A stretch of 35,574 bases of DNA. Origin: Candidatus Atribacteria bacterium (GTDB lineage: Bacteria > Atribacterota > Phoenicimicrobiia > Phoenicimicrobiales > Stramentimicrobiaceae). Location: positions 1-35,574 of the forward strand of contig JAKQEP010000161.1 in the NCBI GenBank assembly GCA_029556475.1. Reading direction: 5' to 3'. Shown in pieces: positions 495-6,553 of this stretch. The notes beneath the pieces were generated by a model that saw only the letters and a list, made by a program, of their open reading frames with translations, had not been told where the DNA came from and made no database searches. How positions within the stretch are numbered: position 1 is the stretch's first letter; every line of letters begins with the position of its first letter. Made by a program: the position numbers and the translations under genes.

Positions 495-1538
495 TTATAA
501 ATTTAGGTATTCACCTCTCAATTGTCCGCAGGCAGCTTCAATATCCTGGCCTTTGGAATATCTAATTGTTACCGGAATATGACATTTTTTCAAGGTCCGC
601 TGAAAGTATAATACAACATTGTCTTTTGAAGGAATAAGTCTGGTTTGCTTGAAAACAGGATTATAGATGATAAGATTAACCTTCGCCTTTGGTTGAAAAT
701 CGGAAATCAAATGACATAGTTTTTTTGCCTGTTCCTGTGAATCGTTTATACCTTTTAACATCATATACTCAAAAGTAATCTGACGTTTTTTCTTCTTAAC
801 ATAGTCTCTACAGGCAGGTATCAGCTTTTTTAAAGGGTATCTCTTATTAACTGGCATCAGTAAATTCCGTATACTGTCTTCGGCAGCATGCAGGGATAAC
901 GAGAGTTCTACCTGAAGGGGGTTTTGAGCAAATTTTTTAATTTTAGGAATGATTCCGCAGGTAGAAATGGTTATTTTCCGGGTACCAATGTTTATACCCT
1001 GTTTCTCATTGATTATCTCAATGGATTTCATTAGCTGTTCATAATTATCAAAAGGTTCTCCCATACCCATAAAAACAATATTGCTGATATGTTCGCTACT
1101 AATTTTTTCAATAGCTAACAGCTGGCTTATAATTTCTCCGGCTGTCAGATTTCTTTTAAACCCTTCTTTCCCACTGGCGCAAAAAAGACAATGCCATAAA
1201 CAACCCACCTGAGTAGATAAGCAGACAGTATTTCTTTTTCTATCTTTAATTAAAACACTCTCAATAATATGCTTATCACCCAACCGAAAAAGAAATTTTT
1301 GGGAGCCGTCCCGGGATTCCATTTTTTTTATGCATTGAAGACTATTCGGCTGAAAGAGGGAACTTAATCGGGTTATAAAATTATGGGGTATATTGCTCAT
1401 TTCACTGAAACTGCTCACTTTTTTTTGGTATACCCAGTGAAATATTTGCCCTGTCCTATAAGATGGGAATCCTTGTTCGGTAATTATCTTTTCCAGTTCT
1501 TGATAGGATAATTCTTTAATATCAATCTTTTCAGCCAT
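495..1538 (-). CDS. rlmN: 23S rRNA (adenine-2503-C2)-methyltransferase, RlmN family radical SAM
   Basis: CxxxCxxC radical-SAM motif (GCLWHCLFCASG), MGMGEPFDN; RBS-like GGGAG before ATG. Confidence 0.93.
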   Translation of the reverse strand: MAEKIDIKELSYQELEKIITEQGFPSYRTGQIFHWVYQKKVSSFSEMSNIPHNFITRLSSLFQPNSLQCIKKMESRDGSQKFLFRLGDKHIIESVLIKDRKRNTVCLSTQVGCLWHCLFCASGKEGFKRNLTAGEIISQLLAIEKISSEHISNIVFMGMGEPFDNYEQLMKSIEIINEKQGINIGTRKITISTCGIIPKIKKFAQNPLQVELSLSLHAAEDSIRNLLMPVNKRYPLKKLIPACRDYVKKKKRQITFEYMMLKGINDSQEQAKKLCHLISDFQPKAKVNLIIYNPVFKQTRLIPSKDNVVLYFQRTLKKCHIPVTIRYSKGQDIEAACGQLRGEYLNL

Positions 1539-1739: not shown

Positions 1740-2438
1740 TCAAACATTTTTTCTGGGACCAAATATAGCAGTGCCAATTCTTACCACATTGGCACCTTCT
1801 TCAATAGCAATATGATAAGAATCAGTCATCCCCATGGAAAGATACTTCATATCTACCTGCTTCAATCTCATTTTTGCCAGTAGGTCAAATATATTTTTTG
1901 CCCTGTAAAAATCCTGCCGGTACTGTTCGGGATTTGCCCCAAAAGCTCCCATAGTCATTAGCCCCACCAGCCGGATATGAGCAAGCTGAGCAATGTCATA
2001 TGCTAATTGTTGCAGATACTCTTCCAGCCTTTCATGTTCATCCGGTTTTATTCCGTATTTGCTTTTTTCACTACCGATATTGATCTCTAACAATATGGGA
2101 ATAAACTCTTTGCCAGATTTTATTATCCGTTTATCGATTTCCTTTGCCAGTTCCAGAGAATCAACAGTCTGAATAATATCAAAGAGGGGCAGCGCTTTAT
2201 TAATCTTATTCTTCTGCAGCGGACCAATCATATGCCAGCTTACTCTTTGCGCTAAATCACCTCTTACTGCTTTCTTTGCAGCCTCGGCTTCCTGAACATA
2301 GTTCTGGCCAATATCAGTAGCACCTGCTTCAATCACTTCCTCAATCTCGGCAGGTGTTCTACCCTTAGTTGCAACTACTATTCGGACCTCAGATGGAATT
2401 TCCTCTCTTATTTTTTGGTAATTTTCGCTAATTGTCAT
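1740..2438 (-). CDS. YggS/ProsC family PLP homeostasis protein
   Basis: VVATKGRTPAEIEEVIEAGATDIGQNYVQEA...WHMIGPLQKNKINKAL...LSMGMTDSYHIAIEEGANVVRIGTAIFG; internal ATG at 2438 preceded by AGGTGG preferred over the tracked start at 2480. Confidence 0.92.
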   Translation of the reverse strand: MTISENYQKIREEIPSEVRIVVATKGRTPAEIEEVIEAGATDIGQNYVQEAEAAKKAVRGDLAQRVSWHMIGPLQKNKINKALPLFDIIQTVDSLELAKEIDKRIIKSGKEFIPILLEINIGSEKSKYGIKPDEHERLEEYLQQLAYDIAQLAHIRLVGLMTMGAFGANPEQYRQDFYRAKNIFDLLAKMRLKQVDMKYLSMGMTDSYHIAIEEGANVVRIGTAIFGPRKNV

Positions 2439-2568
2439 TATAACCACCTGCTTCCAAAAATAAACAATTTTTTTAATCATTAATAATAATTATAATACCA
2501 ATTTAGAAGGAAAATATACAGGGGAAAAGAGATATTAGCAGTTGCCAATTACTTACTTTTTAATAATT

Positions 2569-3006
2569 TTAATCTTTTTCTGGCCCCAGCACTCTGGTTA
2601 CAATGTGTTCCAGACGATTTTGTTCTTTCTCAGTAATGAATTTTCTCTTCCTGGGGGTTTTGTCATAATTAACAATCTTTACCGGTTTTTTTATTGAAGG
2701 TAATTTATGAACAGATACATTCTTTTGGAAGGTAGTATTAATGGGTTTTTCCGGCCTGGATTTATGTACTTTTTTAACTGCCTCTGTTTCTGTTTTTTTA
2801 GTGATGCGGCGGTCGAAAGAAGTTCCTTCAAGTAAGCTTCTAAACAGTAAGGCATTGGGAAAATAAGTCCCTTTTTCTGGTGGATCTTTCTCCTTGCCTT
2901 TGGTAAAACTCCCTTCCCATTCAGTAGCAATTTCTAATTGCTCTAATTCTTTTTGCCCTTTTCCATTATCTGGATAGTTTTCTATTTTTTTGTGGAATAG
3001 ATTCAT
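2569..3006 (-). CDS. Hypothetical Lys-rich 145-aa protein, downstream of a c-di-GMP riboswitch
   Basis: Complete ORF starting ~35 nt after the riboswitch; no recognised domain, signal peptide or TM segment by eye. Confidence 0.75.
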   Translation of the reverse strand: MNLFHKKIENYPDNGKGQKELEQLEIATEWEGSFTKGKEKDPPEKGTYFPNALLFRSLLEGTSFDRRITKKTETEAVKKVHKSRPEKPINTTFQKNVSVHKLPSIKKPVKIVNYDKTPRKRKFITEKEQNRLEHIVTRVLGPEKD

Positions 3007-3040
3007 TTTTATCTCTATATTTTTATAATTAAAAATAAAA

Positions 3041-3124
3041 ATAAAGTCGGCAACCCGGCTGTCATGGCTTTAAGCTTTAGACCCATGGTTTTGCGTCCTA
3101 CCCTTTAGGATAGTTTGCCTTTAT
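3041..3124 (-). promoter_or_regulatory. Cyclic-di-GMP-I (GEMM-I) riboswitch aptamer
   Basis: Minus strand ATAAAGGCAAACTATCCTAAAGGGTAGGACGCAAAACCATGGGTCTAAAGCTTAAAGCCATGACAGCCGGGTTGCCGACTTTAT: GGCAAAC, GGACGCAAA, GGTCTAAA receptor, P3 CATGG/CCATG, CGGGTTGCCGA, outer ATAAAG/CTTTAT pairing. Confidence 0.93.
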
Positions 3125-3230
3125 CAACTTATTATTTCAAAATATTATTATTTTCTTCTCTATATATATTATTCCCTATTTTTTATTTTTTAGACAAATA
3201 TTTAAAAGATGTTGCCTTCTTTTCATTAAT

Positions 3231-5627
3231 TTATTCAGTTTCCCATAATAGAGCAATATTGATTCCAAAAATATCGCTCTTTTTAGGCTTGATACTGATG
3301 GTCTCAATAGTATAATTATCAATATCAAATTTGCCAGACATATTCTCAATACTCTGCTTTAGCTCGTCTTCCAATTTTTGAATATTCTCACTGAGAGCAT
3401 CTATCTTTTTCTTTGCCAGCTCCACATCCTTTTTTTCCTTTAAAATTCTGCTGGCCCTGCCTAAACCGGTTACACCTGTATTTAAAGTACCTACTTTAGT
3501 TCTGCCCAACAAGGCACCAAGAACACTGGAACCCAAAGATAAAGCACTCTGAGTTGTAATAGCCTTAACATCTGCCTCTTCTTTTTCTAATTTCTCCTGC
3601 AATCTGACAAAGTCTTTTTCTAATTTTTCTTCTTTTTTGGAATATTGTTCGGTGAGTTTCTCCACCATTTTATCCTTCTCTGCCCTGATAAGGTCTAAAA
3701 CCCTGGATTTAAAATCAGCTATATCTTCACCTGGAGTTGATAAAACCTTAAATTCTTTAGAGCTAAAGAGTTCTATTCTGGTATTATCATAAAGGTAATT
3801 TTTAAACTTTTCTTCCAAAGCACTGGTATCCTTCATCTTTTCTAAAAAAGAGGGTAACAGAACAAAGCGGGCTCTTTCCAGAGGCTTATCATCATAAATA
3901 CTTATATCATCTTCATTGGGAAGCGCTTCTTTAATATTGAGCTCTACTGTATCCTGGAAGAGAGGAATTTTTAAATAAATATCTTCTTTCTGGTCAATTT
4001 TTTTAGGCTCATTATAAAACCTGACCTTGCCGTTCAAAATTATACTGGGTTTGTAGATAACCTCTTCACTAAAAGGTGGATGATGTAAGAAATATTGTCT
4101 TATCTTATCGGATAGAAATGGTTTTGTCTCGCTTACTGCTGACTTTTTGCCCCTGATATCCTCTTGAAATCCAGTTATATCTTCTGGCTCAGAAACTGCC
4201 ATTTCTTGCTTGTCCTGCATCAACTCTTTAATCTCCCGCACAGAGAGGGGACCTCTCAAATAGGACAAAACCCACCTAGTCTCAAAAAGTGGAAGATAAT
4301 CCATATGAGCGCTCTTTAAAAGAAAGGTCCTCTTTTTCATATTAGCCAGCAAGTTTTCTATCTCGCCCTTATCTAGTGCGTCAGTTGCATTTTTAGCCAG
4401 ACCATCTATTACTTTATCTCTATCCTGCCTGGTTTGTAGCCTGCCCAAAAACCAACTTCCCACATTGGACAGCCCTTTATAATCAAGGTCAATTGGATTC
4501 TGAGTGGCCAGCACCACTCCTATACCATAAGCTCTGGCCTGTTTTAACAGAATCAGCATAGGCTGTTTGGAAGGTGGATTGGAAGTTGCTGGGAAAAAAC
4601 CAAAAATCTCATCCATATAGAGTAAGGTTCGAAGTGAAGAGGCTCCCGTTTGTTGTCTCATCCAGCTGATATATTTATTCAAAAAGAGGGTCACAAAAAA
4701 CATCTGTTGATTAGAATCTAAATGGGCTAGGGAAAGAATACTGACTCTGGGTTTTCCGTTTTCAGTGTATAAAAGATCTTGAATATCTAAATTTTTCCCC
4801 TCTAACCAGGTAGAAAAACCGGGGCTGGACAGAATGTTATTTAAAAGCATAGCCAGGTTAAATCTTTCCTTTTGTGGATAAAAACTATTTAGACTTAAGA
4901 CACCTATCTTCTCAAAAGGAGGATTGGTAATATAACCAATTAATTGTTCTAAGGTAAGATTAATATTTTTCTTCCAGAAATAGGAGAACAATGCTGCTAA
5001 GAGAATATATTCTTTACTGGTTAGGACATCTGCTCTGACATTGAGCAGGGAAAGAAGTCCCATGACCGTTGAATTAATCATAGCAGAATAGGTATCCGGA
5101 TCATCCATAACATCTTCAGAAGGTGCTTCAAAACTGCTTAATACTGATATAGGAATACCCGCCATACTACCGGGTGTATAGATGGTAAAATCTGCACTAT
5201 TCCTATAAAGGCTAATTCTGCTCTTATCCTGGTGAAAGCCTCTTAACCCTTTCTCCCAGTTACCTGCTACCTCCTCAGCATAGACATCGGGCTTCATACC
5301 CTTGCTCTCGGCTTCTAAGGGATCTATCCACCGTTGAAAATCTGACGGCTTTAATTCTGGAAAAGCAAGAAGAAGGTTACCCATATCTCCTTTGGGATCA
5401 ATTATAATGGAAGGAATTTTATCAATGGCGGCTTCTTCAATTATAGCTATTCCCAATCCGGTTTTGCCACTGCCGGTCATACCGATTATGGCAGCATGTG
5501 TAGTAAAATCTTTGGATTTATAAAGAAAGGGAGCCTCATCAGTTTTAAATGTTAAAGTTTTAGGATCAATCTCTTTTCCTAAATAAAACAAACCTAATTT
5601 TTCATATAAAGAAATATAGTCTTCCAT
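3231..5627 (-). CDS. HerA/FtsK-superfamily ATPase with C-terminal coiled coil
   Basis: Walker A GMTGSGKTG, DPKGDMGNLL, Walker B-like TLLYMDEIFGFFP, VVLATQNPIDLDYKGLSN; long charged coiled coil at C-terminus. Confidence 0.85.
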   Translation of the reverse strand: MEDYISLYEKLGLFYLGKEIDPKTLTFKTDEAPFLYKSKDFTTHAAIIGMTGSGKTGLGIAIIEEAAIDKIPSIIIDPKGDMGNLLLAFPELKPSDFQRWIDPLEAESKGMKPDVYAEEVAGNWEKGLRGFHQDKSRISLYRNSADFTIYTPGSMAGIPISVLSSFEAPSEDVMDDPDTYSAMINSTVMGLLSLLNVRADVLTSKEYILLAALFSYFWKKNINLTLEQLIGYITNPPFEKIGVLSLNSFYPQKERFNLAMLLNNILSSPGFSTWLEGKNLDIQDLLYTENGKPRVSILSLAHLDSNQQMFFVTLFLNKYISWMRQQTGASSLRTLLYMDEIFGFFPATSNPPSKQPMLILLKQARAYGIGVVLATQNPIDLDYKGLSNVGSWFLGRLQTRQDRDKVIDGLAKNATDALDKGEIENLLANMKKRTFLLKSAHMDYLPLFETRWVLSYLRGPLSVREIKELMQDKQEMAVSEPEDITGFQEDIRGKKSAVSETKPFLSDKIRQYFLHHPPFSEEVIYKPSIILNGKVRFYNEPKKIDQKEDIYLKIPLFQDTVELNIKEALPNEDDISIYDDKPLERARFVLLPSFLEKMKDTSALEEKFKNYLYDNTRIELFSSKEFKVLSTPGEDIADFKSRVLDLIRAEKDKMVEKLTEQYSKKEEKLEKDFVRLQEKLEKEEADVKAITTQSALSLGSSVLGALLGRTKVGTLNTGVTGLGRASRILKEKKDVELAKKKIDALSENIQKLEDELKQSIENMSGKFDIDNYTIETISIKPKKSDIFGINIALLWETE

Positions 5628-5926: not shown

Positions 5927-6511
5927 ATGTATAATAGAAAAAAAACTAAAATAAGCAGTATATTAATAAATGGATTATTAGTAACACTCTTTCTGCTCCT
6001 TTTAACAGGAGTTGCGTTTTCAACAGAGGAGGCGCCTCAAATATTAATAACTTCAATTGGTCAGAGTCCGGATGCCAGAATGATAAATGTATTATTATCA
6101 CGATACCAGATTTCAGCTGCCTATGAACAGCTTGCCACACCTGAAATGGTAAAAAATTTCAAGATGATTATCGCAGTAGTTGGTGGTAGTTCTAAAGGAC
6201 TGGGGGCCGCTGGAATAGATAAAGAACAGGAATTATCCAGATCAAAAGCTCTGATTAAGGAGGTCAAAGAACTGAAAGTTAACCTTCTGGTAATGCATAT
6301 TGGTGGAGAAGCTCGGAGGGGTGCCCTTTCTGATGCTTTTTTAGATGCTGTGGTTCCTTATGCTGATCATTTAATTATTGTGGAATCCGGAAATCCTGAT
6401 GGCTATTTTAATAAAATGAGTGAGGAGTACAAGATTCCACTACAATCTGTGGAGAAGATTGCTGAAAGCGGTGAGTTAGTAAAGGATTATATTGAAAAAA
6501 ATTTAGAATAG
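5927..6511 (+). CDS. Secreted/membrane-anchored DUF6305-like protein
   Basis: N-terminal hydrophobic signal (ILINGLLVTLFLLLLTGVAFS), then QILITSIGQSPDARMINVLLSR...; family name is from memory. Confidence 0.65.
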   Translation: MYNRKKTKISSILINGLLVTLFLLLLTGVAFSTEEAPQILITSIGQSPDARMINVLLSRYQISAAYEQLATPEMVKNFKMIIAVVGGSSKGLGAAGIDKEQELSRSKALIKEVKELKVNLLVMHIGGEARRGALSDAFLDAVVPYADHLIIVESGNPDGYFNKMSEEYKIPLQSVEKIAESGELVKDYIEKNLE

Positions 6512-6527
6512 AGGTCAGGAAAAATTC

Positions 6528-6553
6528 AGCCACGGATAAACCCGTGGCTTTTT
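6528..6553 (+). terminator. Rho-independent terminator, possibly bidirectional between convergent genes
   Basis: AGCCACGG (6528-6535) / CCGTGGCT (6542-6549) followed by TTTTT; A-rich on the other flank. Confidence 0.8.

Follow-up and report, generated by a model that had tools for sequence, protein, structure and literature searches.

A c-di-GMP-I riboswitch and a putative alternative-sigma-factor promoter precede an orphan gene in Atribacterota

The 145-aa orphan gene of the window (i.e. the whole stretch of 35,574 nucleotides of Candidatus Atribacteria DNA that was analysed) is preceded by a c-di-GMP-I riboswitch, which is proposed to constitute its 5' leader and to be transcribed from a promoter that is recognised by an alternative sigma factor resembling FliA or SigB/F/G. 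As the riboswitch leader would lie under such a promoter, expression of the orphan would need two inputs, namely activity of the sigma factor and a suitable concentration of c-di-GMP, with the aptamer most likely acting on translation by means of a hairpin over the ribosome-binding site. The encoded protein probably contributes to a programme of type IV pilus and cell-surface genes, in which it might act as a disordered adaptor in the cytosol. To the explanation as a whole, that is, an alternative-sigma promoter, a c-di-GMP-I leader and translational control of the orphan, we assign a probability of approximately 0.75 on the basis of sequence analysis. The relevant features, all on the minus strand, are as follows.

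3231 to 5627, minus strand: HerA/DUF87-like ATPase of 798 aa, the upstream neighbour (conserved synteny)
3170 to 3195, minus strand: promoter-like element GTCTAAA-N12-GGGAATA (-35 GTCTAA at 3195-3190; -10 GGGAAT at 3176-3171)
3126 to 3130, minus strand: P1 helix, 5' strand AAGTT (covariation)
3046 to 3129, minus strand: c-di-GMP-I (GEMM-I) riboswitch aptamer (RF01051, 81 bits, full length)
3044 to 3048, minus strand: P1 helix, 3' strand GACTT (covariation)
3002 to 3045, minus strand: putative expression platform, an A+U-rich hairpin of TTTATTTTTATTTTT with the ribosome-binding site and start codon AGAGATAAAAATG (predicted pairing)
2569 to 3006, minus strand: orphan 145-aa protein P0001, basic and mostly disordered (open reading frame, orthologue alignment, AlphaFold2)
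1740 to 2480, minus strand: yggS, PLP homeostasis protein, likely start at approximately 2438 (TIGR00044, 165 bits)
495 to 1538, minus strand: rlmN, 23S rRNA methyltransferase, downstream (TIGR00048, 403 bits)

The riboswitch is real and its membership of RF01051 is clear, while in other respects it is an ordinary example of the class. A cmscan search of the window matched model positions 1-87 to 3129-3046 on the minus strand at 81.0 bits (gathering score 35; E = 1.3e-14), and the core motifs listed by a first-pass annotation, which had called a GEMM-I element here, were all present; no second RNA-family match with an E of 1 or less was found between 2300 and 3400. The interval then given ends at 3124 and omits 5 nt of the match, which reaches 3129. 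Furthermore, the closing helix had been mistaken for ATAAAG/CTTTAT: among 54 parsed aptamers, GATAAAG is a conserved stretch that separates P1 from the core, while P1 itself is formed by 3130-3126 with 3048-3044 (AAGTT/GACTT), for which relatives display the compensating forms AAATT/GATTT, AAACT/GGTTT and AAACC/GGTTT. The P2 tetraloop is a non-GNRA UAAA in the window and GAAA in the aligned sequences of G001 and G005. The gene had been correctly placed downstream of the aptamer, although the distance, estimated at about 35 nt, was measured as 39 nt, and this leader position is kept in all four orthologous loci. The genome from which the window derives (G000; a 2.03-Mb draft of 173 contigs, 84% complete) harbours eight c-di-GMP-I aptamers and encodes six GGDEF proteins.

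The base that discriminates between c-di-GMP and cGAMP is G20 in Vc2, which is equivalent to G11 in Cd1 (PMC9262584). The base directly before CAAAC, on which the assignment to c-di-GMP had previously been based, corresponds to the paired G21; the true selectivity base (model position 11) lies one position further 5', at 3119 on the minus strand, and since this is likewise a G the assignment holds. The window thus lacks the A at position 20 that defines GEMM-Ib. It was considered whether the riboswitch might instead sense 3',3'-cGAMP, or both dinucleotides, since the orthologue in G002 carries A at this position (GATAAAAGCAAAC), the identity found in cGAMP-selective GEMM-Ib, and since the reverse change, A20G, in Gmet_0970 shifts selectivity to c-di-GMP (PMC6456294). 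However, G occupies the position in the window, in G001, in G005 and in 51 of the 54 parsed aptamers (of the remaining three, one has A, whereas two have letters that appear to result from misparsing), which renders sensing of cGAMP by the window riboswitch very improbable. The G002 aptamer (L011 / L048:7352-7435, plus strand; G002:C185) may have a ligand preference shifted towards cGAMP and, as it is one of four orthologous leaders, preference may differ among orthologues.

The orphan is a genuine coding gene under purifying selection, given that dN/dS amounts to 0.25 (G000-G001), 0.15 (G000-G002) and 0.29 (G001-G002) in the three closest pairs. It is present in four of 50 Atribacterota genomes (G000, G001, G002 and G005), and its orthologues share invariant stretches at the N-terminus (MN.F..K), the centre (LFR.L.EGTSFD.R) and the C-terminus (KFI), the window's protein bearing a central LFRRL.EGTSFDRR and a C-terminal KKFI helix. 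Its earlier description as basic and disordered, lacking a transmembrane segment or domain, agrees with a pI of 9.8, the absence of a hydrophobic segment and the absence of a significant domain match. AlphaFold2 predicted short helices without a fold (pLDDT 61, pTM 0.18), among which only the helix at residues 126-140 attained a pLDDT of about 82. Searches of Pfam, NCBIfam, PHROGs and PDB returned no significant relatives, and Pfam DUF2716 was rejected (E = 0.055, below cut-off and in one member only). A scan of genome contigs with the single protein yielded no matches, and an alignment-based scan yielded only two named ones, both in Candidatus Atribacteria MAGs (JAKPKS010000202.1 and JAFGSC010000285.1). 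Inspection of the homologues for GEMM leaders, as had been recommended, revealed an aptamer within approximately 45 nt 5' of the gene in four of four orthologues, and the pairing of orphan and aptamer is thus conserved. This pairing, together with the coding signal, supports the initial proposal that the 145-aa gene is a candidate regulon member; that it represents a new member of the c-di-GMP regulon appears well supported by the sequence comparison.

With respect to the mode of control, AUUUUUAUUU, located after P1, was predicted to pair with the GGAGAUAAAAAU region, where the start codon and the ribosome-binding site lie; this pairing was seen for G000 and in part of the folds obtained for G001 and G002. 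A transcription terminator was rejected as expression platform, no terminator-like hairpin having been found in 2300-3300, the interval between aptamer and gene included. Taken together, the lack of a terminator and the predicted hairpin make translational control the likeliest mode. Forcing P1 in the folding left exposure of the ribosome-binding site unchanged in the four orthologues and did not reproduce switching; as to the direction, there is only a slight lean towards an ON switch.

The promoter-like element, which the first-pass annotation had missed, is located upstream of the aptamer at a distance of approximately 40 nt. Promoters of the SigB/SigF/SigG type follow the pattern GTTTAA-N12-15-GGGTAT. 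The element resembles these, and is inferred to be a promoter with a predicted transcription start at approximately 3163-3160. GTCTAAA-N10-14-GGGAATA occurs seven times in the 2.03-Mb genome (and not at all in a reversed control), in six cases before c-di-GMP-I aptamers; the seventh site, on contig C59, precedes a gene whose product, judged from its sequence, is a small zinc-ribbon membrane protein. The only aptamer of this genome without the sigma-type motif (L043:4057-4140, minus strand; G000:C83) lies before the gene for a 91-aa protein that weakly matches the iron-dependent repressor dimerisation domain. When motif sites from 31 genomes were joined to the aptamer list, 65 GTC sites with a spacing of 12 or 13 nt were counted across 24 genomes of the order, of which 51 (27/38 in the window's family and 24/27 in the sister family) had an aptamer no more than 700 nt downstream, while no site with another spacing preceded an aptamer in the same genome set. 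In a best-match test, 30 of 47 leaders of the window's family matched at least 12 of the 14 motif positions, as compared to 0.5% of shuffled leaders, in which neighbouring bases were moved in blocks of two, so that dinucleotide content is only approximated. About one third of the aptamers in this family are without the motif, which counts against a shared-promoter reading.

These data also bear on the possibility that sigma-A transcribes the leader, in which case the element would be an A+T-rich sigma-70 promoter and GGGAAT would be kept for another cause, e.g. as an activator site. A weak sigma-70-type sequence, TTGTCT-N18-AATAAT (9/12 matches), does overlap the element; however, the strict spacing of 12 or 13 nt, with differently spaced sites never near aptamers, is at odds with such a promoter, as are the occurrence of the motif at pilin genes that adjoin sigma genes and the change of promoter class together with sigma gene class between families (both described below). 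We therefore give housekeeping transcription little chance, and an alternative-sigma promoter is the preferred reading of the element.

Two types of sigma factor are candidates for recognising this promoter. The first is encoded on contig C40 of the window's genome, and its best NCBIfam match is TIGR02980 at 89.4 of 234 bits; as this is below the curated cut-off, the protein is called only SigB/F/G-like. Its gene (L045:5306-6019, minus strand) lies behind an aptamer (6459-6553, minus strand) and a GTCTAAA-GGGAATA motif of its own; a GGDEF protein is encoded before it and a PAS-GAF-HD-domain protein after it, an arrangement that possibly constitutes a feed-forward loop. A sigma gene behind motif and GEMM-I was found in seven members of the window's family, namely G000, G001, G002, G004, G006, G007 and G008. 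The second candidate is a FliA-like sigma factor of a pilus locus, which in G000 scores 109.6 of 189.6 bits to TIGR02479, also below the curated cut-off. Genes for such factors adjoin pilC, DUF6982 proteins and pilins, to which G004 adds pilB and a prepilin peptidase. Type IV pilus loci with a FliA-like sigma factor and DUF6982-type proteins were observed at G004:C17 (L158), G002:C298 (L172), G008:C55 (L160) and G016:C20 (L173); the sigma factor is paired in three of them, and GTCTAAA-N12/13-GGGAATA is located before pilin genes or close by. The pilins follow motif sites in three genomes (G002, G004 and G016) and the motif together with an aptamer in three others (G010, G018 and G022). A FliA-like sigma factor was not recognised in some motif-bearing genomes (e.g. 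G012, G017, G020 and G023), perhaps due to incomplete assemblies.

Additionally, the sister families f4-f6 were compared. There, FliA scores over the TIGR02479 cut-off in five of six genomes, while in the sixth it is divided between contig ends, and TAAA-N15-GCCGATA (at most one mismatch) precedes 10 of 13 c-di-GMP-I aptamers, whereas the same test in the window's family identified none. These FliA-type promoter-aptamer pairs are located at L021, L023, L030, L031, L038, L161, L163-L165 and L167. Few of the exact FliA-motif sites in f4-f6 precede aptamers; the motif is therefore not riboswitch-specific, and the FliA regulon there is broader. Comparison of the FliA-type with the GGGAAT-type promoters thus indicates that promoter class and sigma class change together, whereas the association with riboswitches is retained. 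From these associations we infer that the GGGAAT promoter is read by the pilus-locus FliA-like sigma factor and/or the riboswitch-controlled C40 sigma factor.

Downstream of the orphan, the previous placement of yggS and rlmN on the same strand was borne out by their TIGR00044 and TIGR00048 matches. Given that each of the four orthologous loci has yggS after the orphan, and that in the orphan-less genomes G006 and G007 a c-di-GMP-I aptamer lies directly 5' of yggS (with a LolA-like gene next), it is conceivable that the riboswitch serves mainly yggS, with or without rlmN, and that the orphan is a later insertion of little consequence behind an old yggS leader. Conversely, G004, G008 and G009 lack both aptamer and orphan at this locus, where the herA-like gene is followed immediately by yggS and rlmN, and yggS can thus do without the riboswitch. 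Furthermore, purifying selection acts on the orphan, the leaders before yggS alone are long (156 nt in G006 and 87 nt in G007), and a clear sigma-type motif is restricted to loci with the orphan (14, 13, 13 and 12 of 14 positions in the orphan leaders against 10 and 9 in the yggS-only leaders). A riboswitch chiefly for yggS is consequently rather unlikely, and the orphan is preferred as its target. The locus variants indicate an optional cassette upstream of yggS that consists of the aptamer either alone or together with the orphan. In the window, yggS is possibly the second gene of the transcript; such co-regulation is plausible because of the GEMM-I elements directly before yggS in G006 and G007.

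Other targets of these riboswitches include lipoproteins, papain-like lipoproteins, pilins, and PAS and HD-domain sensors. Tandem c-di-GMP-I aptamers precede a papain-like (C39/C70) lipoprotein at L042:5741-5967 (minus strand; G000:C72), an arrangement repeated in G001 and G009. That most aptamers of the lineage follow the same promoter type suggests that one sigma factor and c-di-GMP jointly control pilus and surface genes; the orphan probably belongs to this programme by guilt by association. On a wider scale, a pilus-linked sigma factor and c-di-GMP-I riboswitches may form one two-input regulon in Atribacterota that takes in most surface genes under riboswitch control as well as a sigma gene, keeps the promoter-riboswitch pairing while the promoter class passes from FliA-type to GGGAAT-type between sister lineages, and counts the orphan as a new cytosolic component, a proposal that we consider evenly balanced. 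Its unusual part, i.e. one alternative-sigma-type promoter tied to many riboswitches of the order, has strong backing from the sequence statistics. Riboswitches are usually viewed as stand-alone regulators under housekeeping promoters, while here the motif predicts many of the order's aptamers, so that further c-di-GMP-linked genes may be found by promoter alone. The sigma gene behind the same pair of promoter and riboswitch offers a testable AND-gate and feed-forward design, and the locus offers a first functional handle on the orphan protein and on pilus and surface control in the poorly cultured Atribacterota.

A partial literature search found no report of c-di-GMP riboswitches in Atribacterota. 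The window aptamer is a typical member of RF01051 in its full-length match, the G at the G20 position, the tandem copies and the lipoprotein, pilus and sensor targets of its relatives, but differs in its orphan target, the UAAA loop of P2 and the alternative-sigma-type motif before many aptamers of the order. With regard to sigma factors, the motif resembles that of SigB/SigF/SigG, the C40 protein has TIGR02980 as its best NCBIfam match, and the pilus-locus protein matches the FliA/WhiG model TIGR02479, yet at 89 of 234 and 110 of 190 bits, respectively, they remain well under the cut-offs. Geobacter GEMM-Ib similarly comprises many GEMM-I leaders, some in tandem, before lipoprotein and pilus genes according to excerpts of PMC6456294 and PMC8835794, although these excerpts describe no shared alternative-sigma promoter and the window bears G rather than A at position 20. 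In the attack phase of Bdellovibrio bacteriovorus, surface proteins, chemotaxis and proteases are under the global control of a FliA-type sigma factor, and this programme also includes expression of merRNA, a c-di-GMP riboswitch RNA (PMC3627812). There, however, a single riboswitch resides in a non-coding RNA that is not listed with a FliA promoter (PMC3627812), whereas in Atribacterota many riboswitch-controlled genes, including a sigma gene, share a sigma-type motif.
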